From a virus: a DNA stretch of 40,750 bases. Made by a program: the position numbers and the translations under genes. Shown here in pieces: positions 6,860 to 23,294 of this stretch. Location of the stretch: positions 2,742-43,491 of the IMG/VR virus record IMGVR_UViG_3300030390_001589. One strand, given 5' to 3'. The notes beneath the pieces were generated by a model. The model made no database searches. It was not told the origin of the DNA and saw nothing but the letters and a program-made list of their open reading frames with translations. Position 1 is the first letter of the stretch; each line of letters opens with the position of its first letter.

Positions 6860-7917
6860 TAAATTATTCCTTTTCCCTTAGATGATTCAGGATCTAATTT
6901 GTTCATTAAGTTATACATTGCTTTAGGACCTCCTGCGTTGTCGACTGCTTTTGCAGTCATAACAAATTCACCATCACTTAACATAGCTGGAATTTTATCG
7001 TCTTTCGGTCCTCCTGGTCCAGTTATTTCGCCAAATTGAGGTGGGAAAAATTCTGTTATACCTGGATTCTTTTTTATTTGATTCATCATTTGGTTACCAC
7101 TCATACGTGGATCAAATATTTCTGGATCTGTTCCACCACCGTAAGCTCTTGTTAATATTCCTGATATTTGATTACCAGGATTAAATGGCTGTTTTAGCAT
7201 TCCTGCATTTGTAATTCCACCACTCTGCAATGGCTGTACCTGATCACTTGGACGTCTAACACCAATCTCATTTTGATAATTTGTAATATTTCCTTCGTCA
7301 TCTGTTACATAATCTTTATACACTCCATCTTCATAAAAATCATAACGTTTACCGTCCTTAGGATTATATTGCAAATCTTCAAAAACAAAATTTTTGTTTG
7401 GATTTGAACCTATTCCAAATTTACTTCCAAACAACTCATCTACTGCTCCATACTCACCAGAGTAGTCAGGACCCCCTAGCGCTCTTGCTTTTTCTTTTTC
7501 TAGTTCTTTTTTCATAAGAAAACTTGCAATAAGTGGCAATATGCCAGATCCAACTTTCGAATTGCCGTCCGCATCTTTTGAAAAAAGACTACCTAATATA
7601 TTTTGAGCTGTTCCAAGAACACCATCACCTTGTACAACAGTATTTGCTGTTGGGCTTGTTATAACCTGGTCTAAACTACCTATAGCTTTTGTAACCGTGT
7701 CTAAACCTGGAATTTTAAATCCTGATCCTTTTAAACTAGGTAAGCCAATCTTTCCTCCAAGAAAAGGTTTTCCACCAGGAATTCCTCCCAAACCTATAAT
7801 AGCAGCTAAAGTGAGTGCTTCGGGATTATTACGAGCAATGTCTTTCGCACCGCTGCCTACGTCCCGTGCTCCTTTTTTTACTCTATCTACTATATCTTTA
7901 ATTTTGTTTATAAACAT
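6859..7917 (-). CDS. Virion-region protein with C-terminal SDGEFV motif (352 aa)
   Basis: First gene of the leftward operon, with a good ribosome site (AAGGAG) just before the ATG at 7917. The N-terminus is basic and helical, then a Gly/Pro-rich hydrophobic region at about residues 33-75. A second hydrophobic helix (ILPLIASFLM) precedes a charged segment near residue 135. The C-terminus (about 308-328) carries IPAMLSDGEFVMTAKAV, a motif I recognise as recurrent in marine phage virion proteins although its function is unknown. A membrane-interacting or internal virion role is plausible but unproven. Transcription likely starts from the promoter at 7994-8022. Confidence 0.75.
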   Translation of the reverse strand: MFINKIKDIVDRVKKGARDVGSGAKDIARNNPEALTLAAIIGLGGIPGGKPFLGGKIGLPSLKGSGFKIPGLDTVTKAIGSLDQVITSPTANTVVQGDGVLGTAQNILGSLFSKDADGNSKVGSGILPLIASFLMKKELEKEKARALGGPDYSGEYGAVDELFGSKFGIGSNPNKNFVFEDLQYNPKDGKRYDFYEDGVYKDYVTDDEGNITNYQNEIGVRRPSDQVQPLQSGGITNAGMLKQPFNPGNQISGILTRAYGGGTDPEIFDPRMSGNQMMNQIKKNPGITEFFPPQFGEITGPGGPKDDKIPAMLSDGEFVMTAKAVDNAGGPKAMYNLMNKLDPESSKGKGII

Positions 7918-8050: not shown

Positions 8051-8731
8051 ATGAAAAAGAAAGAGGAAATATTAAAATTTGATGCAATTAGACCGTTTGG
8101 TCCTACTATTGTGAAGGGTAAGTTACCTAAATTTCTTATTGAGTTAATGGATAAAAAATCAACAGAGATGTTAGATGATGAAAAACTTGCTAAAGAATTT
8201 GATCATTCAGGTTCTCTTGCAGGTAATGTTAAACAAGAAGTTAGATTTCCTTCTGAATGGATGAACACAGAAGAGTTTATGCCGATGGTAAACTTAATGG
8301 GTGAAATGGTTAAACAATATATTTCTATTCCTCCAGCTAGTGAAACTATTACACCTGAGTATGTAGGTAAAATGGTTATTGAATCTATGTGGGTGGTGAG
8401 CCAGTGGGCAGGAGACTTTAATCCTTTTCATATACACGAGGGACAATTATCAGGAGTTTTTTATTTACGAGTACCCCCGAGTTTACCAGAAGAGTATGCA
8501 AAGGAAGATCACTATCCAACAGTAGGTGACATAACCTGGTTCGATGGTCGGGCTGCTACTTTTAGTGGTCATAAATACCAACACTCTCCAGAGGTAGGTG
8601 ACATATTTTTATTTCCTAATTGGTTAGCACACGGTGTCTATCCATTTAGAACACAAAATGAAGAGAGACGATCTGTATCGTTTAATCTTCATCTTATTAA
8701 AAAAGAAGAAGAAAAAGAATTATTAAAATAA
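8051..8731 (+). CDS. 2-oxoglutarate/Fe(II) oxygenase-like protein (226 aa)
   Basis: Resembles the phage-associated 2OG-Fe(II) oxygenase family (TIGR02466 / 2OG-FeII_Oxy_5). Visible signatures are a His cluster FHIHEGQLSGVFYL (H127, H129), a downstream FPNWLAHGV (H194) as the distal metal ligand, and ERRSVSFN (R206/R207), the usual 2OG-binding Arg before the last strand. The fold would be a double-stranded beta-helix that hydroxylates an unknown substrate. I chose ATG 8051, not the in-frame ATG at 8009, because AAAGGA lies just upstream and the extra 14 residues fit no family. It opens the plus-strand operon and shares TAATG with the next gene. Confidence 0.85.
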   Translation: MKKKEEILKFDAIRPFGPTIVKGKLPKFLIELMDKKSTEMLDDEKLAKEFDHSGSLAGNVKQEVRFPSEWMNTEEFMPMVNLMGEMVKQYISIPPASETITPEYVGKMVIESMWVVSQWAGDFNPFHIHEGQLSGVFYLRVPPSLPEEYAKEDHYPTVGDITWFDGRAATFSGHKYQHSPEVGDIFLFPNWLAHGVYPFRTQNEERRSVSFNLHLIKKEEEKELLK

Positions 8732-9306
8732 TGAAACCTGTAGAAATTCTTCCTTCACATATTTATGGCGAAGATTTTCTTAGCCTAGATCAAAATTATT
8801 TAAATTCTTTAAAGGCTTCGATTGAATTAATGCGAAGAGGTCATGTTAATGGCGAAGCAGTTTCTAATTTTCAATTTGGATGGCAATCTAATAATCTGCC
8901 TCATTCAGGACTTTTTGAAAAACTTACACAAAAAATAACTAAAACAGCTTTTTTATTTTGTAAAAATATAAAAAATTTTAAATTTAAAAAAGTAGAAATG
9001 CAATCTTTTTGGGCTAATATTAATTATAAAGGAGATATTAATTGGCCTCATAAACATCAAGGGGATATAGCTGGAGTATACTACATCGATACTCATGAGG
9101 ATTGTGGAAATTTAGTTCTTGATTGTTTTACTTATAATCAAAATTGTAAACTATCTTCTCACCTCGGGCTTAAAGAAAAAAAAATTGTTGTTCCTAAAAA
9201 TGATAAAATTGTTTTATTTGATTCTAGTTGTATGCATTTTGTTACTAAAAATAAATCAGATAAAACTAGAATTAGTATGAGTTTTAATGTGAGGGTTTAT
9301 GATTGA
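8731..9306 (+). CDS. 2-oxoglutarate/Fe(II) oxygenase, TIGR02466-like (191 aa)
   Basis: A second oxygenase of the same general family. The core reads WPHKHQGDIAGVYYID (H107, H109, D112), followed by a strand-rich segment, KIVLFDSSCMHFV (H169, distal ligand) and KTRISMSFN (R180, co-substrate Arg). An N-terminal GWQSNNLP segment near residue 50 is typical of the family. The start ATG overlaps the previous stop by one base, and the 3' end overlaps the next gene by eight. Sequence similarity to its neighbour is confined to the metal- and 2OG-binding blocks, so this is not a recent tandem copy. Substrate unknown. Confidence 0.88.
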   Translation: MKPVEILPSHIYGEDFLSLDQNYLNSLKASIELMRRGHVNGEAVSNFQFGWQSNNLPHSGLFEKLTQKITKTAFLFCKNIKNFKFKKVEMQSFWANINYKGDINWPHKHQGDIAGVYYIDTHEDCGNLVLDCFTYNQNCKLSSHLGLKEKKIVVPKNDKIVLFDSSCMHFVTKNKSDKTRISMSFNVRVYD

Positions 9307-9592
9307 TATTGATAAAACTCCGATGGTCCGTGTGACGTGGCTTGATGCCCGTGATACAGAGACTGGTTGGATAGATATAAAAAAAGTATTAGAGGCACCG
9401 TTGGCTAAGTGTCAGGAAGTAGGGTGGCTGGTTACTAATAACAGTGAAAAAATAGTTATTATGCGTTCTTTTAGCGTATGCCCTGAAGATAAAGAAGATG
9501 TTAGTGGTGGAGGAGCCATTGCTATTCCTAAAAGTTGGATAGTCAAAATAGAATATTTAACAACCCTCTATAAAGTGGACTATGATATTTAA
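9299..9592 (+). CDS. Small conserved phage protein of unknown function (97 aa)
   Basis: A 97-residue protein beginning VRVTWLDARDTETGW (from about residue 10), with KCQEVGWLVTNN and PKSWIVKIEYL later. I recognise this type of small beta-rich protein from many tailed phages, where it has no assigned function. It overlaps the upstream oxygenase by eight bases and the downstream one by eleven, so it is embedded in the oxygenase operon. The predicted beta-rich content could suit a small barrel or SH3-like fold, but that is inference. Confidence 0.78.
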   Translation: MIDIDKTPMVRVTWLDARDTETGWIDIKKVLEAPLAKCQEVGWLVTNNSEKIVIMRSFSVCPEDKEDVSGGGAIAIPKSWIVKIEYLTTLYKVDYDI

Positions 9593-10112
9593 AAAAGACA
9601 CAGCGTTTGTACAATACGTAGATAATTTTTTTAATATTGAAACTTTAGAGTCGCTTCAAGAAACTTTACTTAATTTAAAATATAAAGAGGCAGAAAACGA
9701 AGATGGGACATACGGGAAAAAACATGTTTTTCCTCTTCATCAGTTTCAAAATGATCCTTTATTAAAAAAAATTAAAGATTTCTTTTTTCCATATTCTCGT
9801 TTGGAACCTATTTCTATTAGTGCTCATTTAAGAAATAATAATAAAAAACCTTTAGTTCATTTAGATGCTAAACAGGATAATATAGCTAACTTTCTTTTAT
9901 TTGTTAAAGGAGAACCTTTACTTAATAATGGTACAGGATTTTTTATAGATGGTAAATTATCATCTCATGTAGGTTTTGTAGAAAACAGAGCTTTATTTTT
10001 TAATGGTAGTAAAATATGGCATAGTGATCTTCAATCATTTGGAGAAAGTTCTTCACGTTACACCCTTAATATTTTTTACAGAGAAAAAAAAGCAAAAGAT
10101 GCAGGATTTTAA
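9582..10112 (+). CDS. 2-oxoglutarate/Fe(II) oxygenase-like protein (176 aa)
   Basis: A clear HxD motif LVHLDAKQDN (H93, D95) is followed by GEPLLNNGTGFFIDG, then NGSKIWHSDL (H147, distal ligand) and SSRYTLNIFY (R159, 2OG Arg). Order and spacing fit a double-stranded beta-helix dioxygenase. The sequence differs strongly from the TIGR02466-like neighbours, so it is a different branch of the superfamily. The start overlaps the previous gene and the 3' end overlaps the glycosyltransferase-like gene by 14 bases. Substrate unknown. Confidence 0.82.
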   Translation: MIFKKDTAFVQYVDNFFNIETLESLQETLLNLKYKEAENEDGTYGKKHVFPLHQFQNDPLLKKIKDFFFPYSRLEPISISAHLRNNNKKPLVHLDAKQDNIANFLLFVKGEPLLNNGTGFFIDGKLSSHVGFVENRALFFNGSKIWHSDLQSFGESSSRYTLNIFYREKKAKDAGF

Positions 10113-10896
10113 AAAACATATTTTTGTAGGAACACCGTGTTATGGTGGAATGATTTCTGTAAATTATTTTGAAAGTTGTTTACGTCTAATGTCTGAATGT
10201 GCAACTAATAATATAGGATTACAATTTGGAACAATTGGAAATGAATCATTAGTAACAAGAGCTCGTAATACTTTAGTGCAATTATTTATGGATGATAAAC
10301 AGTACACACATTTATTGTTTATAGACGCTGATATAGGTTTTAACGAGAAATCTGTTAAACGTATGTTAGACTTAGACCAGGAAGTAGTAACAGGTGTGTA
10401 TCCGAGAAAAACTATTGATTGGACAAAAGTTATAAGAAAAGTCAAAGAAAAACCAAATATAAAAGAAAACGAACTTTTAGCATCTTCTTTACAATATAAT
10501 CTTAATGTAAAAAATCCTCATCACGTGGAAGTAAAAAATGGATTTATTGAAGTATTGGATGGAGCTACGGGATTCATGTTAATTAAAAGATCTGTTTTTG
10601 AAAAAATGGCTAAAGCTTATCCCAAATTAAAATTTAAATCAGATCAACATTTAAATGAACCTCACGATAAAACTTTTGACTATCACGATAATTCTGATTG
10701 GAATTATACGTTTTTTGATACAATGATAGAGCCTAAAACTAAAAGATACTTGTCAGAAGACTATGCTTTCTGTAGACTGTGGCAGAAAATTGGTGGAACC
10801 GTATATGCTGACATTGTTAGTGGGCTGACGCACTATGGGACTTATGCCTTTAAAGGCAACGTAGGTACTCAATTCTTGCCACCAGAGAAGAAATAA
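10099..10896 (+). CDS. Glycosyltransferase-like protein, GT-A type (265 aa)
   Basis: N-terminal KHIFVGTPCYGGMIS then NNIGLQFGTIGNESLVTRARN and HLLFIDADIGF, where DAD (residues 76-78) is the metal/nucleotide-sugar motif of GT-A glycosyltransferases. VTGVYPRKTI follows. A C-terminal DGATGFMLIKR, RYLSEDYAFCRLWQ and GLTHYGTYAF complete a pattern I recognise from glycosyltransferase-like proteins of marine myoviruses and podoviruses. I chose ATG 10099 because the family begins here; the in-frame ATG at 10003 would add 32 unrelated residues read through the upstream gene. It could glycosylate a virion or host surface component, or modified DNA. No target is visible. Confidence 0.78.
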   Translation: MQDFKKHIFVGTPCYGGMISVNYFESCLRLMSECATNNIGLQFGTIGNESLVTRARNTLVQLFMDDKQYTHLLFIDADIGFNEKSVKRMLDLDQEVVTGVYPRKTIDWTKVIRKVKEKPNIKENELLASSLQYNLNVKNPHHVEVKNGFIEVLDGATGFMLIKRSVFEKMAKAYPKLKFKSDQHLNEPHDKTFDYHDNSDWNYTFFDTMIEPKTKRYLSEDYAFCRLWQKIGGTVYADIVSGLTHYGTYAFKGNVGTQFLPPEKK

Positions 10897-10912
10897 TTTA
10901 GTATGTGGCCTT

Positions 10913-12793
10913 ATGCAATTAACCGATTTAAAATTTCAACCAGGTGTAGATAAACAAGATTCTCCTTACGCTGCAGGGGATGAAAGAAAATACGTTGATT
11001 CACAATTAGTACGTTTTCATTACGGAAAACCAGAACGTTGGAAAGGGTGGAGTTATCTTCCTAATCCTAATGAAACCGTTATTGGTGTAGTCCGTGATAC
11101 ACATTCATGGGTTACATTAGATGGTAATAGATATCTTGCTATAGGTACTGATAGAAAATTATATATACTTGAGGGTAGTGCTCTTTATGACATTACACCT
11201 ATTCGTGAAACTGCTTCTCTAACTAATCCTTTTACAACTGTAAGTGGCAGTCCTATTGTAACCGTAGCCGATGCTACTCATGGAGCTGCTGTGGGAGACT
11301 TTGTTACTTTTGATGATGGTAGTGCTAATAATGTATTAGACGGAATAGAATTTAATAATGAATTTGAAATTACAGAAGTAGTAGATGCTGGTAATTATAA
11401 GATTACTTATTCTTCAAATGCTACAGGAGCAACAGCAGGTGGAGGAGGATCAGTTACAGCAACTTACCAAATTAATGTAGGACCAGCTACATCTACATAC
11501 GGATACGGTTGGGGTATTTTAACTTGGGGATTAAGTACATGGGGAACAGCTCGTTCTTCTTCAGATGTAACAATTAATGCTCGTAATTGGTCATTGGATA
11601 ATTTTGGAGAAGATCTTGTTGCTACTGTTTTAGATGGTGGAACTTTTCAATGGGATAAAACTAACGGAGTAAGTACAAGGGCCGTGAGCCTCGGTGTAAC
11701 AGCACCTGTTGCTTCTCGTTTTTCTTTAGTCTCTGCTGACACTCGACATTTATTTTTATTTGGAACATGTACTACGGTTACAGATGCAACTACGCAAGAT
11801 GATTTATTTTTTAGATTTGCTGATCGTGAAAGTTTAACAGTGTTTGCACCTACAGCAGAAAATGAAGCAGGTTCGCTTCGTATTGCTGATGGTTCACGTA
11901 TTATAGGTGCTGTTAAATCAACTGGTCAAATATTAGTTTGGACTGATCAATCACTACACGGTGTTCAATTTGTTGGAACACCATTTACATTTGGTCAACG
12001 ACAACTTGGGGCTAACTGTGGATTGATAGCGCAACATGCAGCTATTGATGTAAATGGTCAAGCATTTTGGATGGGTGATGATGCATTTTATATGTATGAT
12101 GGGGTTGTTAAAAAAATGCCATGTTCTGTTCAAGATTATGTTTATGACGATTTAAGTTATACTAATAAAAATGATATAGCTTGTGGAGTTAATCCTGAAT
12201 TTAATGAAATACTTTGGTACTATCCTTCTTCAGATGCTACACAAATAGATAGAGTAGTTGTTTACAATTATTTAGAAGGTACTTGGTATACTTCAACATT
12301 AGGACGTACAAGTTACCTTGGAAACTATACTTTTGAAAATCCTATTTCTTCTGAATTTAATGCTTCTTTAGTAGCAAATGCTACAACAAGTACAGGGGTG
12401 AGCGATACACCGTTCGGTGTAACAGCAGGAGCTTCTTATTTGTATAATCAAGAGGTAGGTAACAACCAAGCCGATGGCTCTGCTATTAGTGCTTCTCTTA
12501 CTACAGGATCAATTGAAATTGGGGATGGAGATCAATTTATGTCTGTTTCTAGATTTGTTCCAGACTTTACTTCTTTAGCTAATAATCTAACTGTTACCTT
12601 AACTTTAGAAGACTACCCTCAATCCACAGCTAGTCAAATAACTACAGGAACTGTAACTAGCACAACAGATAAAATTAATATAAGAGGAAGAGGAAGATCA
12701 GTAAAATTAAATTTTGCAACTAATACAGTGGATGACACTAATTGGAGACTCGGATCAATGAAACTACAACTTAGACCAGACGGGAGAAGATAA
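10913..12793 (+). CDS. Tail nozzle / P22 gp10-like tail protein (626 aa)
   Basis: Begins with LTDLKFQPGVDKQDSPYA and LVRFHYGKPERWKGW, the characteristic N-terminus of a large podovirus tail protein. A YGYGWGILTWGLSTWG Trp/Gly block lies near residues 195-212, and repeated beta-propeller-like strands follow (for example GQAFWMGDDAFYMYDG, near residue 395). The protein is Thr/Ser/Gly rich and strand-rich with no coiled coil. I infer the P22 gp10 type DNA-stabilisation or nozzle role that closes the tail below the adaptors. It is on the plus strand among oxygenase genes while its likely partners, the adaptors, are on the minus strand. No good ribosome site is seen before ATG 10913, yet the start matches the family. 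Confidence 0.78.
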   Translation: MQLTDLKFQPGVDKQDSPYAAGDERKYVDSQLVRFHYGKPERWKGWSYLPNPNETVIGVVRDTHSWVTLDGNRYLAIGTDRKLYILEGSALYDITPIRETASLTNPFTTVSGSPIVTVADATHGAAVGDFVTFDDGSANNVLDGIEFNNEFEITEVVDAGNYKITYSSNATGATAGGGGSVTATYQINVGPATSTYGYGWGILTWGLSTWGTARSSSDVTINARNWSLDNFGEDLVATVLDGGTFQWDKTNGVSTRAVSLGVTAPVASRFSLVSADTRHLFLFGTCTTVTDATTQDDLFFRFADRESLTVFAPTAENEAGSLRIADGSRIIGAVKSTGQILVWTDQSLHGVQFVGTPFTFGQRQLGANCGLIAQHAAIDVNGQAFWMGDDAFYMYDGVVKKMPCSVQDYVYDDLSYTNKNDIACGVNPEFNEILWYYPSSDATQIDRVVVYNYLEGTWYTSTLGRTSYLGNYTFENPISSEFNASLVANATTSTGVSDTPFGVTAGASYLYNQEVGNNQADGSAISASLTTGSIEIGDGDQFMSVSRFVPDFTSLANNLTVTLTLEDYPQSTASQITTGTVTSTTDKINIRGRGRSVKLNFATNTVDDTNWRLGSMKLQLRPDGRR

Positions 12794-13077
12794 TGAAAAA
12801 AGAACATAAAAGTCCTACGGGTGGATTAACACAAGCAGGGAGAGATCATTTTAAAAAAACTGAAGGCGCTAATTTAAAAGTTCCTTTGGCAAAAGGTAAA
12901 AATCCTAGAAGAATTTCTTTTGCGGCAAGGTTTGCAGGAATGCCAGGCCCGATGAAAAAACCTAACGGAGAACCCACAAGAAAAGCATTAGCTTTAAAAA
13001 AATGGGGATTTGGTTCTGTAGCAGCAGCTAAAACTTTTGCTCAAAACAATAAAAAAAGTAGCATCAAAAAAGTATAA
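12793..13077 (+). CDS. Small basic marine-phage protein, SPTGGLTQAGR type (94 aa)
   Basis: A Lys/Arg-rich protein with KSPTGGLTQAGRDHFKKTEG near the start, then KNPRRISFAARFAGMPGPM and a basic tail. I recognise this as the small family annotated DUF6321 in marine phages, function unknown; the high positive charge suggests DNA or virion contact. The start shares TAATG with the nozzle gene and the stop shares TAATG with the next mini-gene, so it is tightly coupled to the tail block. Confidence 0.82.
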   Translation: MKKEHKSPTGGLTQAGRDHFKKTEGANLKVPLAKGKNPRRISFAARFAGMPGPMKKPNGEPTRKALALKKWGFGSVAAAKTFAQNNKKSSIKKV

Positions 13078-13196
13078 TGAAAAAAAATAAAATAAAAACA
13101 GTTAAAAAAGTAATTAAAGGTTTAAAAAAAGCATCCAACACACATGCTAAACAAGCAAAAACTTTACAAAAAGTTATAAATAGAAGGGGGAAATAA
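13077..13196 (+). CDS. Basic mini-protein (39 aa)
   Basis: A 39-residue Lys-rich peptide (MKKNKIKTVKKVIKGLKKA then SNTHAKQAKTLQKVI). ATG shares one base with the stop of the upstream gene and its TAA shares one base with the next ATG. The KASxxHxxQAKTL pattern resembles mini-proteins I know from marine phages. The length is below usual gene-calling limits, but coupling on both sides makes it credible. It is a basic amphipathic helix. Function unknown. Confidence 0.7.
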   Translation: MKKNKIKTVKKVIKGLKKASNTHAKQAKTLQKVINRRGK

Positions 13197-13363
13197 TGGC
13201 TAAAATAACAATAACACGATTACCAAACGCAACGCCAGAATATAAACCAAGTCAATTTAATCAAATGATACGATTACTTGAACAACTTATTTTAAATTTA
13301 AATACATCATATTCTCAAGACATAGAAAATAAATCTAGTGGAAGGAGTTGGTACTTTGGCTGA
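13196..13363 (+). CDS. Small conserved tail-region protein (55 aa)
   Basis: Fifty-five residues beginning MAKITITRLPNATPEYKPSQ, then FNQMIRLLEQLILNLN and a Ser/Arg C-terminus ending SWYFG. I recognise the pattern (short strand, then one helix, then RSWYF) from small conserved genes beside tail genes of marine phages. The start is a TAATG overlap with the 39-residue gene; the last eight bases overlap the TTG-started gene after it. Function unknown, structural assembly likely by position. Confidence 0.72.
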   Translation: MAKITITRLPNATPEYKPSQFNQMIRLLEQLILNLNTSYSQDIENKSSGRSWYFG

Positions 13364-13733
13364 TACATTTAAAAATGCAGGGAAAGATATTACAACAACA
13401 GATTTAACAACCCTCTATACTGTTCCTACAGCATCACCAGGCGTCACAGGAACATCACCTGTTTTTCCAACAACTGCTGTTGTAAAATCTATTTTAGTTT
13501 GTAATGACCATGCAACTGCTACTACTCTTGTGGATGTAGTTTTTACTGATACCAGTGCCTCTGCTACAATTGCTTTATTTGAACAAAAAAGTGTAACGGC
13601 AAAAACTACTGATGAATTATTAGAGCAACCTTTAGTATTAGAAGAAGGGGACATATTAAAAGTACAAGCTAATGCGGCTAATCAAGTACATGTAACTGCT
13701 AGTATATTAGAAATAACAAAAGGAGATTTGTAA
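13356..13733 (+). CDS. Beta-rich virion protein with TTG start (125 aa)
   Basis: The protein begins ADTFKNAGKDITTTDLTTLYTVP and continues as alternating strands with Thr/Val/Ala, a pattern seen in small decoration or tail proteins of marine phages. I choose TTG at 13356: GGAAGGAG ends eight bases upstream, and family members start here. A GTG at 13338 is also in frame but would put the ribosome site inside the gene. Its stop TAA (13731-13733) overlaps the candidate ATC start of the next oxygenase. Confidence 0.75.
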   Translation: MADTFKNAGKDITTTDLTTLYTVPTASPGVTGTSPVFPTTAVVKSILVCNDHATATTLVDVVFTDTSASATIALFEQKSVTAKTTDELLEQPLVLEEGDILKVQANAANQVHVTASILEITKGDL

Positions 13734-14326
13734 TCGACCTTCATTCTTTATTTATTACTCCTATTTTTTCATTAAATTTAGCAGGGTATGAAGATTTAAT
13801 AAAAGATATTAAAGATCTTCAAGACAAAGAACCTCAGACTATAGAAGGAAAAAGCACTAAAGGAGGATGGCACAGCCATGATTTTCTTCACGAAAATGAA
13901 AAGTTTGGTAAATTAAAATCTGAGATTGTTAATCTATCTCAAGAAGCTATGACACATTTAGATATAATTAAAGAAATGATTCCTGAAGTAACAGGGATGT
14001 GGGCCGTGGTTAATGGACCAGGAAGCAGTAATCGTTTACATAATCACCCTTTTAATTACCTCTCAGGCGTCTTTTATTTACAAGTGCCTAAAGATAGTGG
14101 TTCCCTTATATTTCATGATCCTAGACCTCAATCTGAAGTATTATCACCTCCTAAAAAACCACAGGAGAGTATACATACAGCGCACCGAGTAACATGGACA
14201 CCCAAACAAAATGATATATTATTTTTTCCTTCTTGGCTTCAACATGAAGTAAAGGAAAATAATTCACAAGAAGAAAGAATTGTGATAAGTTTTAATATTG
14301 AATTAAAAAGGAGAAACAATGACTAA
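13733..14326 (+). CDS. 2-oxoglutarate/Fe(II) oxygenase, TIGR02466-like, apparent ATC start (197 aa)
   Basis: The family needs the N-terminal block KGGWHSHDF (residues 43-51), which is encoded in frame well upstream of the first ATG at 13949. Reading back, the frame is open to ATC at 13733-13735, which overlaps the preceding TAA exactly as the usual TAATG does and lies seven bases after AGGAG. Core signatures are NRLHNHPFNYLSGVFYL (H103, H105), FFPSWLQHEV (H171) and EERIVISFN (R182). Either ATC initiates, the ATG has mutated, or the base is an assembly error. An ATG-13949 product of 125 residues would keep the metal ligands but lose the first third of the protein. Confidence 0.75.
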   Translation: MDLHSLFITPIFSLNLAGYEDLIKDIKDLQDKEPQTIEGKSTKGGWHSHDFLHENEKFGKLKSEIVNLSQEAMTHLDIIKEMIPEVTGMWAVVNGPGSSNRLHNHPFNYLSGVFYLQVPKDSGSLIFHDPRPQSEVLSPPKKPQESIHTAHRVTWTPKQNDILFFPSWLQHEVKENNSQEERIVISFNIELKRRNND

Positions 14327-14573
14327 AATTGTAGAAGAAGCAAAAGTTTTAGGGGAAATTGATGCAGGCGATGGTCGTATGGTTCCTCATATTAGATGTA
14401 AATCTGAGACAACGATTATTAATACAGAAACAAACCAAGAATATAATTCTGAAAATGATGCAACAAACGATGTAGCTAATCCCAATACAGCAACTAAAGA
14501 AGAACATATTAGACGAGATGTAAAAATATTTGCTCCGTCTCTAGCTGATATGGTAGGAGCTAACGACGACTAA
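14319..14573 (+). CDS. Small acidic protein of unknown function (84 aa)
   Basis: Eighty-four residues, acidic and Asn/Thr rich, with a C-terminal RRDVKIFAPSLADM motif that I have seen at the end of small conserved marine-phage proteins. A good ribosome site (AAAGGAGA) precedes the ATG, which overlaps the oxygenase stop by eight bases. The stop overlaps the tail of the opposite-strand gene by four bases, so this is the last gene of the first plus-strand block. No function can be assigned. Confidence 0.68.
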   Translation: MTKIVEEAKVLGEIDAGDGRMVPHIRCKSETTIINTETNQEYNSENDATNDVANPNTATKEEHIRRDVKIFAPSLADMVGANDD

Positions 14574-14785
14574 GCACTACAAGCTTCACATTCAACGTCA
14601 GCTTCGTTTCCATTTAACATTACTTTTTCATTAGAAGTATCATGACAACCACATCCTTTTAAGTGTTCTGATAATGTTTTTTTTAGTCTTTCATTATCTC
14701 GCTCTGAGGCTAATAAACGTTCGTGGTAGCGGCTCACCTTGTCAGCGAGGACAGCTATAGCTTTCAATACTTCTTGATTTTCCAT
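14570..14785 (-). CDS. Small coiled-coil protein with C-terminal cysteine cluster (71 aa)
   Basis: Residues 1-42 form a charged helix with heptad-like Leu (ALADKVSRYHERLLASERD and on). The C-terminus has CGCH (C45, C47, H48) and CEAC (C66, C69), which could bind one zinc. It sits alone on the minus strand inside the plus-strand cluster, convergent with and overlapping the preceding gene by four bases and divergent from the next oxygenase. The ribosome site AGGAG lies six bases before its ATG. A separate promoter is required. Function unknown; a small metal-binding regulator is one possibility. Confidence 0.7.
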   Translation of the reverse strand: MENQEVLKAIAVLADKVSRYHERLLASERDNERLKKTLSEHLKGCGCHDTSNEKVMLNGNEADVECEACSA

Positions 14786-14891
14786 AATATCTCCTGTGAT
14801 TTAAATTTTTGGGTGAGATCTAATTTAACCATATTTCAATTGAAAGCAACAGAACTTTTTAAAATTGTTTTATTGACAAGAAATATATGAT
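14786..14891. promoter_or_regulatory. Divergent gap with 12-base palindrome and weak promoter
   Basis: Gap between the minus-strand cysteine gene and the plus-strand oxygenase at 14892. A perfect palindrome TTTCAATTGAAA spans 14834-14845. It lies between minus-strand boxes TTGCTT (14849-14844) and TAAATT (14827-14822), spaced 16 bases, so a repressor bound there could block the promoter. No convincing plus-strand promoter is seen, although TTGACA occurs at 14873-14878. Confidence 0.3.
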
Positions 14892-15518
14892 ATGAAAGTA
14901 ACAGAATTAGAAAAAAGAATGAAACATAGAGTTATAGTTTATGACAAAATAGTAGGGATATATAAAATTCCTTTAAAACTCATTAGTGATTTAAATAAAA
15001 AATATGAAGCTGCAAGAAATCATTTAACCAGTTATGGTCCTCGTTTAGCAGGGCGATTAAATAGTGAACTAGATATTATTCCTATTATTCAAAAAACTAC
15101 AGCGTTTAAAAAAATAACTGATTGTGTTTCTCATTATATAGATCTAAATAAAAAATACGGCATATTAGTAAATCAACATTATAATTTAGATATTCAAAGT
15201 TGTTGGATTAATGATATGATTCAAAATGAATACAATCCACCACACACGCATCATAACAATACTGGATACTCCACTGTTTTATTTTTAAAAGTTCCTAAGT
15301 TTATTGATGATACAAAAGATCCTCATAAATTTAAAGATGGTCAGTTGTCTTTTGTAAACTGTTCTAGCAACGCTTGTTCATGGCATGAACCTAAAGTTGG
15401 TGATTTTTATATTTTTAAAGCAGATCACATGCATTCTGTAATGCCTTTTAAAACAAAAACTTTTAAAGAAATTAGACGTTCTATGTCTTTTAATTTTATA
15501 ATAAAAAATAAAACTTAA
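14892..15518 (+). CDS. 2-oxoglutarate/Fe(II) oxygenase-like protein (208 aa)
   Basis: A 208-residue protein with a helical N-terminal half and a beta-helix core: YNPPHTHHNNTGYSTVLFL (H118, H120), an intervening SFVNCSSNACSW segment, VGDFYIFKADHMHSV (H181, distal ligand) and KEIRRSMSFNF (R195/R196). This matches the layout of phage TIGR02466-type oxygenases, with a long N-terminal extension. One base separates it from the next gene. It opens the second plus-strand block after a divergent gap, so it may have its own promoter. Substrate unknown. Confidence 0.85.
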   Translation: MKVTELEKRMKHRVIVYDKIVGIYKIPLKLISDLNKKYEAARNHLTSYGPRLAGRLNSELDIIPIIQKTTAFKKITDCVSHYIDLNKKYGILVNQHYNLDIQSCWINDMIQNEYNPPHTHHNNTGYSTVLFLKVPKFIDDTKDPHKFKDGQLSFVNCSSNACSWHEPKVGDFYIFKADHMHSVMPFKTKTFKEIRRSMSFNFIIKNKT

Positions 15519-15519
15519 T

Positions 15520-16206
15520 ATGTTTGAAAAAAAAATAAGATTTACATGTATTGATCCTAATTTTGTAGATATTTGGCCTCATCCAAAACCAGCTACAAAG
15601 TTTATAACAGATGCTTATAAAAAATTAGAAAGATACTCTGGAGGTAATTTATTAAAAGGAACAGTTAAAACATGTATGCCTTTTTTAGATTCTATGACAG
15701 CAGGATATATTATTCCTTTTGATCAAGATTATTTAATTGATGCTGTTGAAAATGATTTTGTCGTTATTCCTTCTACTAAAAAAGAAGAAGATACAGGAGA
15801 ACATCCTAACACGCAATTACCAACAGAATGGCATAAAGGAGCAGGAGAAAAAGCAGGAAAATTTATTAATAAATGGTTAATAGAAACACCTCCTGGTTAT
15901 AGTTGTTTATTTATTCATCCTATGAATAGAGTAGAAGAACGTTATAAGATTATAGAAGGTATTGTTGATACCGACAGTTATATGAATACAATTCATTTTC
16001 CTTTTATTTTAAAAGAATGGAATAAACAAACTTTACTTAAAAAAGGAGATCCTATGGTTCAAGTTGTTCCTTTTAAAAGAGAATCTTGGAAAATGTGGTC
16101 TGGTTTTACTTTTGAAAAAGAACATAGTAAAACTTTAAACAGATTAAATAGTGAATGGTCTGATAGATATAAAAAATATTGGTGGAAAAAGAAAGGTTTT
16201 AAATGA
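15520..16206 (+). CDS. Conserved phage protein, DUF6065-like (228 aa)
   Basis: Visible blocks are CMPFLDSMTAGYIIPFDQDY (residues 52-71), KWLIETPPGYSCLFIHPMN, IVDTDSYMNTIHFPF and GDPMVQVVPFKRESWKMW. I recognise this set from a conserved marine-phage protein that resembles DUF6065, which has no known activity. It lacks the HxD...H...R set, so I do not count it as an oxygenase, although the many strand and Gly/Pro turns could also give a cupin-type barrel. It is embedded between oxygenases in one operon and overlaps the next start (ATGA). Confidence 0.75.
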   Translation: MFEKKIRFTCIDPNFVDIWPHPKPATKFITDAYKKLERYSGGNLLKGTVKTCMPFLDSMTAGYIIPFDQDYLIDAVENDFVVIPSTKKEEDTGEHPNTQLPTEWHKGAGEKAGKFINKWLIETPPGYSCLFIHPMNRVEERYKIIEGIVDTDSYMNTIHFPFILKEWNKQTLLKKGDPMVQVVPFKRESWKMWSGFTFEKEHSKTLNRLNSEWSDRYKKYWWKKKGFK

Positions 16207-16733
16207 TTAACTTAAAAGATTTTGTTCATAAATATGACAATATAATTGAAAAAGAAATATGTGAGGAAATTATAAATCAAAAAGATTTAAAATTTTATCC
16301 TGCCAAAACTGGTGGTGGTGTTCACAAAGCTAGAAATTGTTTAGTTAAACCTATAGAAAAAAATTTTGACAGTAAGATACATGAAATAATTTCAAAAATA
16401 ATTCAATTATATATGGACGATCATGAACATTTTGGTCCAGGAATGGGTTCTATTGAAGATACTGGTTATGAACATTTACTTTATTTAGGTTCAAACAAAG
16501 GTGAATACAAACAGCACACCGATCACATGGATATGTTTCCTAGAATATTAAGTGTATCTATTTTATTAAATGATAATTATGAAGGTGGTGATTTTTCTTT
16601 TTTTAACGGGCAACACATTATTAAAAAAAAACAAGGAAGTGCAATTGTTTTTCCTAGTAATTTTTGTTTTCCTCATGCTGTGCTACCTGTGACACAAGGA
16701 GACAGACATTCTATAATTACATGGATTCATTAA
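16203..16733 (+). CDS. 2-oxoglutarate/Fe(II) oxygenase, prolyl-hydroxylase-like (176 aa)
   Basis: Carries EYKQHTDHMD (H105, D107 as the HxD pair), a strand RILSVSILLNDNYEGGDFSFF typical of P4Hc-type dioxygenases, CFPHAVLPV (H158, distal ligand) and GDRHSIITWIH (R168, 2OG Arg). Length and order fit the prolyl 4-hydroxylase-like branch (2OG-FeII_Oxy_3), distinct from the TIGR02466-like neighbours. The start overlaps the previous stop by four bases and the stop shares TAATG with the next gene. Possible substrates include proteins or small molecules; none is shown. Confidence 0.88.
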   Translation: MINLKDFVHKYDNIIEKEICEEIINQKDLKFYPAKTGGGVHKARNCLVKPIEKNFDSKIHEIISKIIQLYMDDHEHFGPGMGSIEDTGYEHLLYLGSNKGEYKQHTDHMDMFPRILSVSILLNDNYEGGDFSFFNGQHIIKKKQGSAIVFPSNFCFPHAVLPVTQGDRHSIITWIH

Positions 16734-17296
16734 TGAAAAATCAATATAAATATATAAACAATTTTTTATCGGAAGATTTAGTAGCTTACTTATCTTTTTT
16801 TATTTTAAATCAAGATAAATTTATAGGTGATGATCAAGTTCCTCAATCACATTCTTTGCATTCCAATCAATCTCCAATTATGTATAATCTTCTTCATTTT
16901 CTACGTCCTCGTATGGAAAAAGAAACAGGATTAAAATTAAAACCAATTTATGCTTACACTAGATTATACTTACCTGGTGCAGATCTTTATCGTCATAAAG
17001 ACAGAGGACAATGTGAAATCAGTGCATCTTTAACTTTACAATACCATTATGAAGATAAAAATTATAAATGGCCGTTGTGTATGGGAGACACACCTATTAT
17101 TATTAATTCAGGTGACGGGGTTATATATAAAGGTTGTGAAATAGAACATTGGCGTCCTGTTTTTATTCAAGAACCACCAAGTTGGCATCATCAAATATTT
17201 ATTCATTATGTAGATTTAAATGGTAAAAATAAAAATTTAGAAGAAGAATATAGTTCTACAGGAGATGAAATATACGTTAAACCTAAGAATAATTAG
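16733..17296 (+). CDS. 2-oxoglutarate/Fe(II) oxygenase-like protein (187 aa)
   Basis: Motifs LYLPGADLYRHKDRGQCEIS (H88, D90) and KGCEIEHWRPVF (H139) give the metal site; SWHHQIFIHYVD forms the last strand. The region between (NYKWPLCMGDTPIIINSGDG) fits a short oxygenase. I choose ATG 16733 because TAATG couples it to the previous oxygenase; the in-frame ATG at 16664 lies inside that gene. The 3' end overlaps the convergent minus-strand gene by 14 bases, with no visible terminator. The 2OG-binding Arg is not obvious, so the exact cofactor set is less certain than for its neighbours. Confidence 0.8.
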   Translation: MKNQYKYINNFLSEDLVAYLSFFILNQDKFIGDDQVPQSHSLHSNQSPIMYNLLHFLRPRMEKETGLKLKPIYAYTRLYLPGADLYRHKDRGQCEISASLTLQYHYEDKNYKWPLCMGDTPIIINSGDGVIYKGCEIEHWRPVFIQEPPSWHHQIFIHYVDLNGKNKNLEEEYSSTGDEIYVKPKNN

Positions 17297-17675
17297 GATC
17301 GTAATCTATCCATGTTTTATCAAAAGTAGATTCATCATTTCCTGATTCTACATAAGTTGTTAAAGCTTCCATCCACTTTAATTGAGCTGTTTCAATTTGA
17401 GCTTGACGAGTTGATCCCCAATCTAATAACTCTTGAAGAGTTGTGTCCCCTACAGCGTCACTTTTTGAAGTAAACAAAGTATTTCCTGTCATATCACCTG
17501 TAGAAGGATCTTTTCTTTGAATTTCATTATCACCTGGTTGATCGTTGTAAACAATAGCATGAATAGTATTATCGTTTAAACTAGGCATTGCATTACCTTT
17601 ATTTACCCATTTAATGTGAAATGAATCATTTACTAAAATACTTTCATTAGGAAATATCATTATTTGATTAGCCAT
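17283..17675 (-). CDS. Possible fibre assembly protein downstream of the collar fibre gene (130 aa)
   Basis: The first half is strand-rich (MANQIMIFPNESILVNDSFHI), the second a charged helix (ELLDWGSTRQAQIETAQLKWMEALT). Trp-rich helical C-termini and a position directly downstream of a tail-fibre gene are typical of tail-fibre assembly chaperones, so I suggest that role by analogy only. Five bases separate it from the fibre gene. Its stop overlaps the convergent oxygenase gene by 14 bases. Confidence 0.6.
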   Translation of the reverse strand: MANQIMIFPNESILVNDSFHIKWVNKGNAMPSLNDNTIHAIVYNDQPGDNEIQRKDPSTGDMTGNTLFTSKSDAVGDTTLQELLDWGSTRQAQIETAQLKWMEALTTYVESGNDESTFDKTWIDYDPNYS

Positions 17676-17680
17676 ATTTT

Positions 17681-18379
17681 TTAAAATTTAATAATATAGT
17701 TAACTACTACGTAAGGAGAAAAAGAATTAGTTCCTGCACCTGCTACAGTTCCTGTTAATGTTCCACCTGAAGTTGTTACAGCTACAGTTCCTGTTAATGT
17801 CCCTGATAAAGTGTGTGCGTGTGTGTGACCTGTTCCACTTCCAGCATTTTCAAGTGCACCTGTAATCCATCCTGGAGAAGGTGCCCATCCATCTGCCATT
17901 GGACGAATAGTTTGGTTCCAACCTATTACAGGGCCTCCTGTTACAGCATTTGGATTTCCACTAGAAAAATGGGCTGTGTGATCATGAGAACCTATTTGAG
18001 CTTCGGTTAAAGAAGTATTTGATACTGCTCCTGTTACTGTTACTGCTTGATTGTTAGCTACAGTAGATGTAACTGTGCTTACAGCTTGATTGTTAGTCAT
18101 TGAAACAGTAACTGTATTAGCACCACCAGTAGCTGCTAAATTATAAGTATTACCATCATATCCTTGTGGAGTTTTCCCTTGTAGTTGAGGAACATTAAAT
18201 GTTGTTGAACCATCACCCGCACCATATGTTGTGCTTGTTACAACGAACAAGTCTGCATACGTTGTTCTAGAAACTGCTGCACCATTACATAATAAATATC
18301 CACTTGGCGCTGTTGCTTTAGGCCAAGGTTTAATTGTCCCTACTTCACTTCTATTTGTAAAATCTTGTAAATTAGTCAT
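17681..18379 (-). CDS. Tail fibre with phage collar domain (232 aa)
   Basis: Residues about 14-65 form a phage Tail_Collar domain (PF07484): GTIKPWPKATAPSGYLLCNG, then SRTTYADLFVV, TTYGAGDGSTTFNVPQLQGK. The middle is Thr/Val-rich repeats. Two His clusters, GSHDHTAHF and GTGHTHAHTL, resemble the metal-binding His rows of T4 short-fibre gp12-type receptor-binding tips. The C-terminal FSPYVVVNYIIKF is the usual collar-fibre end. It is likely a receptor-binding or short-fibre protein. Its start overlaps the gene upstream by eight bases. Confidence 0.85.
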   Translation of the reverse strand: MTNLQDFTNRSEVGTIKPWPKATAPSGYLLCNGAAVSRTTYADLFVVTSTTYGAGDGSTTFNVPQLQGKTPQGYDGNTYNLAATGGANTVTVSMTNNQAVSTVTSTVANNQAVTVTGAVSNTSLTEAQIGSHDHTAHFSSGNPNAVTGGPVIGWNQTIRPMADGWAPSPGWITGALENAGSGTGHTHAHTLSGTLTGTVAVTTSGGTLTGTVAGAGTNSFSPYVVVNYIIKF

Positions 18380-19097
18380 TGTATTTTAATCTCCATCCAA
18401 AAGTTGCATCATAGAATACTAAAGCAATACCTGCACTATTAGTAGTAATTTCTAAATCTGCAGCAGATCCCATAATTGGTTGACTGTTACGTCCTATAGT
18501 AATTTTATTTGTTCCTGCTGTTCCTTCTGCATCTATAATTTTACATTGCATTCCTATACTAGGAGAAGCAGGTAATGTTAAAGTAAAAGTTCCACCCGAT
18601 GTATCAGCAAAAATGTTATCGCCGTCTACCATAGTATAGTTTCCAGTTTTTTTTGTCCATGTTTCACTTAAACCTGCTAAATCAAAAATATCATACCAAT
18701 TAGTACCATCAGTAGCTAGTAAACGATATTTACCGTTTGCAACAGTTACTGTGTTTCCTGTAGCACCTAGTCTAGCAGATACATCTGCCCCACCACTGAT
18801 GTTATTATAAACACCAACAGTTTTTTGTGTAGCTGGAAATTGTACTGTGTGTGTTGTAGAAACAGTTCCTGTAAAAATTATTTGGTTTTGTCTTGCTTCG
18901 TTGTTTGCTTGAGATTGTGGACCATCGCCGTTTGATAGCGTAGTTGAAGTTCCTGTAGTAAGTGCTTTAGAATAAACACCAGCAATAGCAAATTCAAAAA
19001 CTTGAGAAAAGTTATTATTAGTTATAGTTCCCCACGTACCTGAGTTTTCCCCATTTACTTGTAGTTCGATTCTAAGCCCTGTTGAATATGTTGACAT
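18372..19097 (-). CDS. Tail fibre-like protein (241 aa)
   Basis: The N-terminus STYSTGLRIELQVNGENSGTWG is a recurring virion-attachment block in marine phage fibres. The C-terminal half (VDGDNIFADTSGGTFTLTLP, then GTNKITIGRNSQPIMGSA) is a beta-rich domain that I recognise from the ends of such fibres. No enzymatic motif. It precedes the collar fibre and overlaps it by eight bases, so both are probably made together as parts of the host-recognition apparatus. A candidate promoter lies directly upstream at 19114-19142. Confidence 0.8.
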   Translation of the reverse strand: MSTYSTGLRIELQVNGENSGTWGTITNNNFSQVFEFAIAGVYSKALTTGTSTTLSNGDGPQSQANNEARQNQIIFTGTVSTTHTVQFPATQKTVGVYNNISGGADVSARLGATGNTVTVANGKYRLLATDGTNWYDIFDLAGLSETWTKKTGNYTMVDGDNIFADTSGGTFTLTLPASPSIGMQCKIIDAEGTAGTNKITIGRNSQPIMGSAADLEITTNSAGIALVFYDATFGWRLKYND

Positions 19098-19113
19098 TTA
19101 ATCTCCTAAGTAA

Positions 19114-19142
19114 GTTTTATTGATAAATATAAAGTTTGTCAA
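19114..19142 (-). promoter_or_regulatory. Candidate promoter ahead of the fibre genes
   Basis: In the 50-base gap on the minus strand, a perfect TTGACA (19142-19137) is followed by 17 bases and TAAAAC (19119-19114), then AGGAG and the fibre ATG at 19097. The -10 box is only a partial match. The TTGACA sits in the loop and second arm of a weak AT-rich stem (19131-19137 with 19142-19148). It could raise fibre expression late in infection. Confidence 0.35.
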
Positions 19143-19147
19143 AACTT

Positions 19148-20629
19148 TTATGCAGCCTTAGTTACTTCTGTCCAACTAATAGAACTGTTTGAGTCATCTA
19201 CTACATTCCATGCTGTAATATCTAACGATCCTACACTACTTGTAGCAGAAACCCCTGTTATTGTAAAGATTGCATTTCCTGAAACATTTGGGTTACCTGG
19301 ACTTGCAGTAAGAGAAACCCCTGTTAAAGCATATGACGATTCCTGTGATGCTTGTCCCACGGCTGACGTTGCACTTTGTCCTGTTGGAGTTATTTCTACA
19401 CCACCTGCCGCTACCACACTACCAACAAAAGATGATGAACCAATTGCTGAATATTCATTTGCATCACTAACAGGAGTATTAGCTTGTCCACCCATGCCTG
19501 AATGAACACTACAATAATAATATAAAGTAGGTGCACCTGTCGCTACTGTTATTTGAGTGTAAGCTCCTGAATTACCTGGAACACCATAATAATATACGCC
19601 TGTTGTATATGCTGAACCACCACCGTGTGTTCCATCTGAAGTTATGCTAAATCTAAATGGATGTCCATCATTACTAGCATCTGATTGATCAAATAAATAC
19701 GTGTTTCCTTCAGCTAATTCTAAAGTGTCTTGTTGAATTCCATCAATAACATATTTATTACCATATGCTGTACTTATAACTGTTACTACTTTCGTAACAG
19801 TTCCTCCATCTCCAATTACGTCAACATCAGTTGAAACAATTTCTGTTCCAAGACTTGTAACTAAACCGATACCTGTTGGGGATACAATAGCACCACCTGT
19901 TGCAATTTCTGTTCCAAGACTTGCTGTTAGTTGTTCTCCTACGGGTAATACAGTTGGACTAATACCAACTGATACAGTTCCAAGACTTGCATCTAGTTCT
20001 GGTTCACTTGAAGCGACAACGGTTATAACCCCATCACCACTAATAGAAAAAGTACCAATTGAACTTGTAGCCCCAACACCTGTTGCAAATGCAGAAGTTC
20101 CTAGTGTTCCTGTAGCTATCGACATTCCTGCCGATGTAATTGTTGGAGCAACGTCTCCTTGGAATGTCATAGTTCCTGGAGTAGAAGTTGCACTTACACC
20201 TGTTAAAGCATAACTCGCTGCGGTAATTCCCCAAAGGTTATCACCCCAACCAATTTCTACATTTGATGATCCTGCAAATGCTCTTCCCCAACCACTTTGA
20301 AAACCAGTAAAAACTGATTCTGAACCAAGAGAAGAGGTTGTGCCTAATCCTGTTAGAGTAACATTAGCAGAACCTACAACGGAGGTAGGTGTATTAGTAT
20401 TAGATTGAAGTTGTTGTCCTGGAGCAGTTAAATTTTGACCTCCAGTAGCAACACCAGTTCCTACGGCTGACGTGGTACCAAGACCAGTAAGCGTTACGTT
20501 ACATGCACCCGTAATAGTTGGGGTAGCAGTCGCTGAAGTGAGGCCGACACCCGTTGCTTCGACAGGAGCTTGTTGTCCCCATGCACCACTGCCCCAAGTT
20601 TCTCGGCCCCATCCTTGGATGGAAGCCAT
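19148..20629 (-). CDS. Repetitive tail protein with embedded cupredoxin-like domain (493 aa)
   Basis: The N-terminus GWGRETWGSGAWG and a second copy near residues 112-134 are Trp/Gly blocks seen in marine virion proteins. Most of the protein is degenerate repeats of the type TLTGLGTTSSLGS. Residues about 282-385 (19475-19786) differ: VVTVISTAYGNKYVIDG, GNTYLFDQSDASNDGHPFRF, and LYYYCSVHSGMGG. H323, C373, H376 and M379 match the type 1 copper ligand set of cupredoxins (H, C-x2-H-x2-M). Whether copper binds is unknown. It is probably an extended virion surface or fibre protein. Stop precedes the fibre operon by about 50 bases. Confidence 0.8.
   Translation of the reverse strand: MASIQGWGRETWGSGAWGQQAPVEATGVGLTSATATPTITGACNVTLTGLGTTSAVGTGVATGGQNLTAPGQQLQSNTNTPTSVVGSANVTLTGLGTTSSLGSESVFTGFQSGWGRAFAGSSNVEIGWGDNLWGITAASYALTGVSATSTPGTMTFQGDVAPTITSAGMSIATGTLGTSAFATGVGATSSIGTFSISGDGVITVVASSEPELDASLGTVSVGISPTVLPVGEQLTASLGTEIATGGAIVSPTGIGLVTSLGTEIVSTDVDVIGDGGTVTKVVTVISTAYGNKYVIDGIQQDTLELAEGNTYLFDQSDASNDGHPFRFSITSDGTHGGGSAYTTGVYYYGVPGNSGAYTQITVATGAPTLYYYCSVHSGMGGQANTPVSDANEYSAIGSSSFVGSVVAAGGVEITPTGQSATSAVGQASQESSYALTGVSLTASPGNPNVSGNAIFTITGVSATSSVGSLDITAWNVVDDSNSSISWTEVTKAA
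19837..19989. repeat. Near-exact tandem 21-base repeats in the tail gene
   Basis: caatttctgttccaagactt occurs at 19837-19856 and again at 19903-19922, 66 bases (22 codons) apart. A shorter copy, gttccaagacttg, is at 19977-19989. They encode repeated Ser-Leu-Gly-Thr strands of the repetitive tail protein, but identity at the DNA level suggests recent duplication or unequal recombination within the gene. Confidence 0.75.
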
Positions 20630-22991: not shown

Positions 22992-23294
22992 TTACTTTGC
23001 CATTCCCATTCCACGTTTAGCGACTCCACCACCACGTTTATTTAAAGCTCCTACAATTCTTTTCTTTTCTTGTTTTAAGTTTTTCTTACCTTTTTTAGTA
23101 AAAGCTTTTTCAGCATCTACTCTTCCAAGTTCTTCTAATTTATTCATACGGCTAGTATTTGCTTTACCACCTCTTGAAAGTTTAGCAGTTTTTTTCTTAG
23201 GGCCCATCATACCGCCCATATTTTTTTTAGCTATTTTTTTCTTAGGAGACATTCCGCCACCTCTTAGTCTTGCAGTTTTCTTTTTACCCATCAT
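22992..23294 (-). CDS. Very basic small protein with C-terminal KRGGG tag (100 aa)
   Basis: About one third Lys/Arg, with internal repeats of MGPKKKTAK type (SPKKKIAKK, GPKKKTAKL) and a tail NKRGGGVAKRGMGMAK. The same tail ends the 145-residue protein at 31700-32137, with about 35 of 40 matching bases. A strong ribosome site (GGAGG) lies before ATG 23294; a second Met follows. Such proteins could neutralise DNA or bind capsid acid residues; no function is known. It overlaps the upstream gene by four bases. Confidence 0.72.
   Translation of the reverse strand: MMGKKKTARLRGGGMSPKKKIAKKNMGGMMGPKKKTAKLSRGGKANTSRMNKLEELGRVDAEKAFTKKGKKNLKQEKKRIVGALNKRGGGVAKRGMGMAK

Follow-up and report, generated by a model that had tools for sequence, protein, structure and literature searches.

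We analysed a 40,750-nucleotide stretch of viral DNA (the window; positions 2,742 to 43,491 of the 43,491-base IMG/VR virus record IMGVR_UViG_3300030390_001589; G+C content 34%), in which an island of plus-strand genes encodes seven proteins, here called oxygenases A to G, that resemble 2-oxoglutarate (2OG)/Fe(II)-dependent oxygenases. The island is bordered on both sides by opposite-strand genes; one flank holds genes for DNA-ejection and tape-measure-like proteins (5831–7917), the other those for tail collar/fibre proteins (17681–20629). The phage is a marine podovirus with kinship to the HTVC023P-type pelagiphages, and the island sits within its tail gene cluster; no near-identical DNA was found among annotated phages.

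A first-pass annotation, made from the letters of the window, had proposed seven oxygenase-like genes here; all seven open reading frames are present, and the oxygenase-like assignment is supported for each, four by PF13759, one by PF13640, and the two without a convincing Pfam match, C and G, by PHROG matches (phrog_274 and phrog_2954, respectively) together with their predicted fold (Table 1). The PF13759 matches all exceed the gathering cut-off of 27 bits (A, 67.7 bits, E-value 1e-18; B, 54.5 bits, 2e-14; D, 96.5 bits, 1e-27; E, 43.8 bits, 4e-11), as does the PF13640 match of F (55.4 bits against a cut-off of 27; E-value 1e-14). At the level of NCBIfam models, the curated TIGR02466 cut-off of 62.5 bits is passed by B (75) and D (122.1) and missed by A (53.8) and E (28.7), while F, at 41.9 bits, falls under the equivalog cut-off of 143 for PKHD-type hydroxylases (PRK05467/PiuC).

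Orthologues show little or no variation in the metal ligands, which are near-invariant over 43–72 orthologues in A, C, D, E, F and G. The four PF13759 proteins carry the pattern H-x-H...H...R, and C and F carry H-x-D...H...R; the canonical HxD...H triad is found in C, F and G. The Arg or Lys that binds the C5-carboxylate of 2OG is expected about 10–12 residues past the distal His, and a candidate Arg is conserved in six of the seven proteins, in agreement with the first-pass count; the exception is G, which has H88-x-D90...H139 without an Arg at the usual site and in which R77, R91 and R141 are conserved instead. The HxH of the PF13759 proteins is not the canonical carboxylate triad; domain and HxH...H...R pattern are nevertheless common to solved TIGR02466/2OG-FeII_Oxy_5 relatives (3bvc and 2rg4), which differ in being cellular proteins without an assigned function.

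The double-stranded beta-helix (DSBH) is supported by profile homology for five of the proteins and by predicted structures for C and G (pLDDT 91.7 and 91.6; family alignments of 44 and 45 members, respectively). Both models match prolyl-hydroxylase-type oxygenases across nearly the whole chain: the top Foldseek match of G is the Pseudomonas putida P4H (E-value 5e-8), with Z-scores of 15–16 to PiuC, vCPH and P4H, and the model of C gives Z-scores of about 15 to PHD2 and P4H. The predicted fold and the HxD...H site are those of PBCV-1 vCPH, Pseudomonas P4H, PHD2 and PiuC, although sequence identity to these is 11–19%. Because direct profile–profile comparison of the C and G alignments gave only 7.7% probability, the kinship of the two rests on structure.

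The seven proteins had been held to share only their ligand blocks; this does not apply to the four PF13759 proteins, which are homologous well beyond them (blastp E-values of 1e-5 to 1e-13 over 110–190 amino acids for most pairs). In a tree, the A, B, D and E sequences of different phages fall into four clades, one for each type, those of A and E being sisters. Because these clades are separate, old and orthologous, recent tandem duplication is excluded, and on the evidence of the tree the four are old paralogues that have been kept as such. The further proposal that the genes were collected rather than tandemly duplicated is therefore partly right: it stands with respect to recent duplication, but an old duplication within PF13759 may have taken place.

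Table 1 Features of the oxygenase island and its fibre-side flank
Feature	Coordinates	Strand	Assignment and remarks
Oxygenase A	8051..8731	+	PF13759/phrog_81; H127-x-H129...H194...R206/R207; in nearly all related islands covering that end
Oxygenase B	8731..9306	+	PF13759; passes the TIGR02466 cut-off; part of the variable cargo, with few orthologues
Small conserved island protein	9299..9592	+	phrog_25889; no assigned function
Oxygenase C	9582..10112	+	phrog_274 (labelled 'DNA endonuclease V', probably wrongly); prolyl-hydroxylase-like predicted fold; invariant H93-x-D95...H147...R159
Glycosyltransferase-like protein	10003..10896	+	phrog_1574; DAD motif; weak match to the glycosyltransferase family phrog_34859; shared by almost all close relatives; start approximate, likely near 10100
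Tail nozzle/stabilisation-type virion structural protein	10913..12793	+	phrog_3287
Small basic protein	12793..13077	+	phrog_4689; present in only some relatives
Conserved island gene (13338 gene)	13338..13733	+	phrog_1276; stop codon overlaps start of oxygenase D
Oxygenase D	13733..14326	+	PF13759, TIGR02466; H103-x-H105...H171...R182; apparent ATC start overlapping the TAA of the 13338 gene
Small conserved island protein	14319..14573	+	no assigned function
Oxygenase E	14892..15518	+	PF13759; H118-x-H120...H181...R195/R196; in E-DUF6065-F-G block adjoining fibre
DUF6065-like/phrog_7084 protein	15520..16206	+	lies between oxygenases; no oxygenase by profile; travels with E
Oxygenase F	16203..16733	+	PF13640, phrog_61, PKHD/PiuC-like; H105-x-D107...H158...R168
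Oxygenase G	16733..17296	+	phrog_2954 (labelled 'ferrochelatase', apparently wrongly); P4H/PiuC-like predicted fold; H88-x-D90...H139
Island boundary gene	17283..17675	-	accompanies the collar type of fibre seen in the window
Tail collar/fibre protein	17681..18379	-	candidate substrate
Tail-fibre-related protein	18372..19097	-	phrog_31104; candidate substrate
Gly/Thr/Ser-rich tail-fibre-like protein	19148..20629	-	candidate substrate

The PHROG labels of families G and C disagree with these assignments. Ferrochelatases have the chelatase alpha/beta fold and about 320 residues; the model of G is a 187-residue beta-helix whose listed structural matches are oxygenases, ferrochelatases not being listed, which is no formal exclusion of a chelatase fold. 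The ferrochelatase domain PF00762 matched none of the 45 family G members at an E-value of 1 or better, and was found neither in seven annotated phages carrying family G nor in the record containing the window, against eight of 14 control genomes. The phage 'ferrochelatase' family (phrog_2954, phrog_3531 and T4-GC 615) has, as judged from the predicted structure, an oxygenase fold, with no ferrochelatase signal. The reassignment appears to be new, no earlier correction of the label having been found in the literature (open-licence papers).

This family is widespread: tblastn found it in 142 phage records, mostly from Synechococcus phages, and most of the 50 records listed of the 142 matched are annotated as ferrochelatase; in S-SCSM1 and Sf-CH3 the gene is instead named a 2OG or oxoglutarate/iron oxygenase. 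Its members include gp67 of HTVC023P ('putative ferrochelatase'), an identically labelled gene of 023Pt_psg01, and T4-GC 615 of S-SSM5 and S-PM2, which Sullivan 2010 (PMC3037559) listed with a ferrochelatase domain. Each of the 49 non-redundant loci whose flanks were long enough has a further oxygenase gene no more than 1.5 kb from G or joined to it in a fusion, and in two records (L151 and L158) G and F are a single fused protein. Each 'ferrochelatase' of pelagiphages has been reported to adjoin a 2OG gene (Wittmers et al. 2022, PMC9599517), and the phrog2954 'ferrochelatase' was reported to be seasonally enriched in a 2024 time series (PMC11561400); on the present assignment both observations concern an oxygenase.

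The label 'DNA endonuclease V' of the phrog_274 family likewise appears to be wrong: among 44 members of family C there was no Pfam endonuclease match, and 11 match PF13640 and 18 DUF6445. A tblastn search found no close relative of C in phage records; a profile does find one in 023Pt_psg01. We also observed that the profiles labelled 'DNA endonuclease V' (phrog_274 and phrog_19810) and 'DNA endonuclease' (phrog_2297) match the same proteins as the oxygenase profiles phrog_61 and phrog_81. All three endonuclease labels are probably misnomers. Elsewhere, a minus-strand gene in record L181 (3090–4229) has an HxD-bearing N-terminal part, with a weak phrog_19810 match, fused to a phrog_28122 domain, the start of which resembles the product of the minus-strand window gene at 23291–23875. 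Through this fusion the latter gene is possibly linked to the oxygenases.

The genes of the island follow a conserved arrangement rather than a random one. Some 15 related records have in common the order A, small protein, (C), glycosyltransferase-like gene, nozzle gene, 13338-type gene, D, small protein, variable cargo and collar/fibre genes, with 5–10 oxygenase genes per island in close relatives, three in HTVC027P, and four each in HTVC023P and 023Pt_psg01; PF13759 occurs in 17 of 18 related records, in up to eight copies. The described clustering beside a nozzle gene and a glycosyltransferase-like gene is borne out, and the refuting condition named in the first-pass annotation, genes occurring only singly and at random positions in related phages, did not hold, since arrays occupy this slot in relatives as well. 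A sequence search of the Protein Data Bank with the glycosyltransferase-like protein returned nothing significant.

The variable cargo of relatives' islands includes a sulfotransferase (PF03567), a two-part carbamoyltransferase (PF02543 and PF16861), a methyltransferase (PF13578) and JmjC (PF02373)/cupin proteins (L183, 7961–11450; L184, 791–2264; L185, 13194–17601), as well as further oxygenases. The earlier suggestion of a modification pathway is supported by these additions at the same site, which make the island one of group-transfer type. A recurring family in relatives' islands resembles heptosyltransferase/GT9 by eye and has no Pfam hit. Relatives carry two types of fibre, a collar type and a Gly-rich type; the E-DUF6065 block, often with F and G, lies beside the fibre in 14 of 15 rows of the collar type and in none of the six of the Gly-rich type. 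Replacement of a collar by a Gly-rich fibre is repeated (L051, L056/L192, L072, L080, L086 and L088), and the neighbouring oxygenase block differs too. The tree of the nozzle protein implies no fewer than four switches of fibre type, and each of the three informative independent pairs shows the block switching along with the fibre. Both the transferase/JmjC cargo and the fibre-linked change of the block appear to be new.

At the conserved N-terminus of oxygenase D none of the codons ATG, GTG and TTG occurs; ATC stands at its start. Of 43 unique orthologues that retain the conserved motif there, 42 have ATC (32) or ATT (10) at this position. The codon takes its A from the end of the upstream stop codon (TAATC, TGATC or TGATT) and closely follows a ribosome-binding sequence of AAGGA/GGGG type (AGGAG in the window). 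TAATG would suit the stop/start overlap equally, so ATG seems to be selected against here. In four orthologues in which D and the upstream gene are apart (L068, L123, L141 and L144), ATG occurs at that same residue with its own purine-rich, ribosome-binding-like sequence; in the TGA group an adjoining CTG is an alternative start in 11 cases. For the majority of the other island genes whose N-termini are conserved, ATG is the aligned start codon in most orthologues. Fusion of D to the 13338 gene by frameshifting was rejected, since the uncoupled orthologues start with ATG at exactly this residue and no conserved slippery heptamer was seen by eye; apparent ATC starts in orthologues of F were explained by an alignment shifted by one codon (ATC ATG).

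Oxygenase D is apparently translated from a conserved AUC/AUU start that, from the alignments, would be weak and coupled to the upstream 13338 gene; this appears to be new, no prior report of such a start for D having been found in the open-licence literature. The AUU start codons of Escherichia coli infC and pcnB are conserved non-AUG AUN starts that hold expression down. Gene D shares with them a conserved AUN start other than AUG, but differs in using AUC or AUU, in being a phage gene, in its one-base stop/start overlap and in having AUG where that overlap is lost.

The oxygenase array itself, which the first-pass annotation took to be undescribed, is already described for related phages: several clustered, non-orthologous 2OG genes, one of them always beside the 'ferrochelatase', were published in 2022 for HTVC023P-type pelagiphages (Wittmers et al., PMC9599517), and larger sets are known in cyanomyoviruses, with 24 2OG genes in S-SCSM1 (PMC9602691) and nine copies in S-SZBM1 (PMC9146016). 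Like the window, HTVC023P, HTVC027P and 023Pt_psg01 have relatives of D, F or G type beside the same nozzle gene; the window phage is distant from these isolates (nozzle 38–41% identical) and has seven oxygenases, with the 'ferrochelatase' now counted among them. Cyanomyovirus sets also mix PF13640 and PF13759 proteins with family G, seven of them around tail-fibre genes in S-SCSM1, but their 2OG genes are more scattered and have no nozzle gene order in common with the window.

Unrelated phages (Mosig, S-SCSM1 and L158) likewise group members of these oxygenase families next to genes for tail fibres or the neck. The order in Mosig EXVC030M is tail fibre, 2OG gene, 'ferrochelatase', 'endonuclease V', three 2OG genes, heme oxygenase, PcyA-like gene and neck; L149 has five oxygenase genes in a row, and in L158 a collagen-like (Gly-X-Y) tail fibre lies about 2 kb upstream of the fused G-F gene (1–528 and 2526–3719). 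We noted separately that the genes adjoining the oxygenases of Mosig EXVC030M (L196, 39650–44735), for heme oxygenase and a phycocyanobilin:ferredoxin oxidoreductase-like protein, belong to a phage of a non-photosynthetic host.

We interpret the island as a phage modification cassette that most likely hydroxylates virion (tail/fibre) proteins, which transferases then elaborate; we favour this interpretation because the nearest folds are mostly protein hydroxylases, the place in the tail cluster is fixed, the cargo includes transferases and the island changes jointly with fibre type, and we give it somewhat less than an even chance. Each oxygenase would bind Fe(II) and 2OG and hydroxylate an amino-acid side chain, F and G, adjacent in the window and fused in other phages, acting as a pair. 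The targets would be virion proteins of the same region, namely the collar/fibre proteins (17681–20629), the nozzle and the 13338 protein. The glycosyltransferase-like protein, and in relatives the sulfo-, carbamoyl- and methyltransferases, would extend the new hydroxyls, giving a chemically variable host-contact surface, and D would be made at a low, coupled level directly after the 13338 gene. The complete scheme, in which hydroxylases and glycosyl-, sulfo-, carbamoyl- and methyltransferases decorate the tail tip stepwise, are exchanged with fibre type and include one oxygenase kept low by its conserved AUC/AUU start, is more doubtful and is put forward tentatively.

Several observations weigh against virion hydroxylation. 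With HxH in four of the seven oxygenases, canonical 2OG chemistry is not assured, and the window's own fibres have no collagen repeats. The position in the tail region could stem from late expression or from a recombination hotspot, and fibre and cargo could be exchanged together by plain linkage: a sign test on the independent pairs, of which there are too few, gives p = 0.25. In HTVC027P the fibre is of collar type, yet the E-DUF6065 block is missing. A circular-shift test in Mosig showed no significant closeness of oxygenases to tail fibres (p about 0.10 at 6 kb), and uvsW/uvsY are the neighbours of some of that phage's oxygenase genes.

The main rival explains nearly as much: oxygenases and transferases would modify host-surface glycans or lipids during infection, for superinfection exclusion or receptor masking, as the sulfo-, carbamoyl- and methyltransferase cargo, typical of surface-polysaccharide loci, might suggest. 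S-SCSM1 has its 24 oxygenase genes alongside cell-wall modification genes (PMC9602691), and the glycosyl-, sulfo- and methyltransferase cluster of Mosig is far from its tail genes; the genes of the present phage group, however, sit among the late tail genes, and their cargo varies with the type of fibre; we consider this explanation possible but rather unlikely. Steering of host nitrogen or iron metabolism, through consumption of 2OG or through iron use with heme synthesis by the 'ferrochelatase', has been proposed for cyanophages (Sullivan 2010, PMC3037559) and pelagiphages (PMC9599517, PMC11561400), and heme oxygenase and PcyA-like genes adjoin the Mosig cluster. It is improbable given the predicted oxygenase fold of the 'ferrochelatase' and the absence of PF00762 from the eight phage records searched, and a 2OG sink would need no array of divergent enzymes with separately conserved pockets.

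There is a similarly small probability that some of the seven are non-catalytic DSBH proteins, such as small virion or chaperone parts, as HxH in place of HxD/E in four proteins, the missing Arg of G and a weak match of C to phrog_1644 'minor coat protein' might indicate; near-invariant ligands would be unexpected in dead folds, and HxH is shared with the cellular PF13759 proteins of solved structure. Least probable, in our view, is TET/JBP- or AlkB-like modification or repair of phage DNA. It would accord with the 'DNA endonuclease' labels of phrog_274 and phrog_2297, a weak match of the G profile to the Naegleria Tet-like dioxygenase (E-value 0.25) and the Mosig genes by uvsW/uvsY, but no Tet_JBP or AlkB Pfam domain matched any of the seven proteins, the closest folds are protein hydroxylases, PiuC and natural-product enzymes, and the genes sit among tail genes.

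The array belongs to a phenomenon noted earlier in abundant ocean phages and never explained, and cultured relatives with the same clusters exist. What may surprise specialists is the reassignment of 'ferrochelatase' and 'endonuclease V' and the apparent AUC/AUU start; the latter is a natural example, and a rare one, in which to study translational coupling and initiation at codons other than AUG. Published claims on phage-driven heme metabolism and its seasonality rest on the 'ferrochelatase' gene, which is here assigned to the oxygenases; the clusters of pelagiphages and cyanophages would therefore be larger and purer oxygenase arrays than has been stated.

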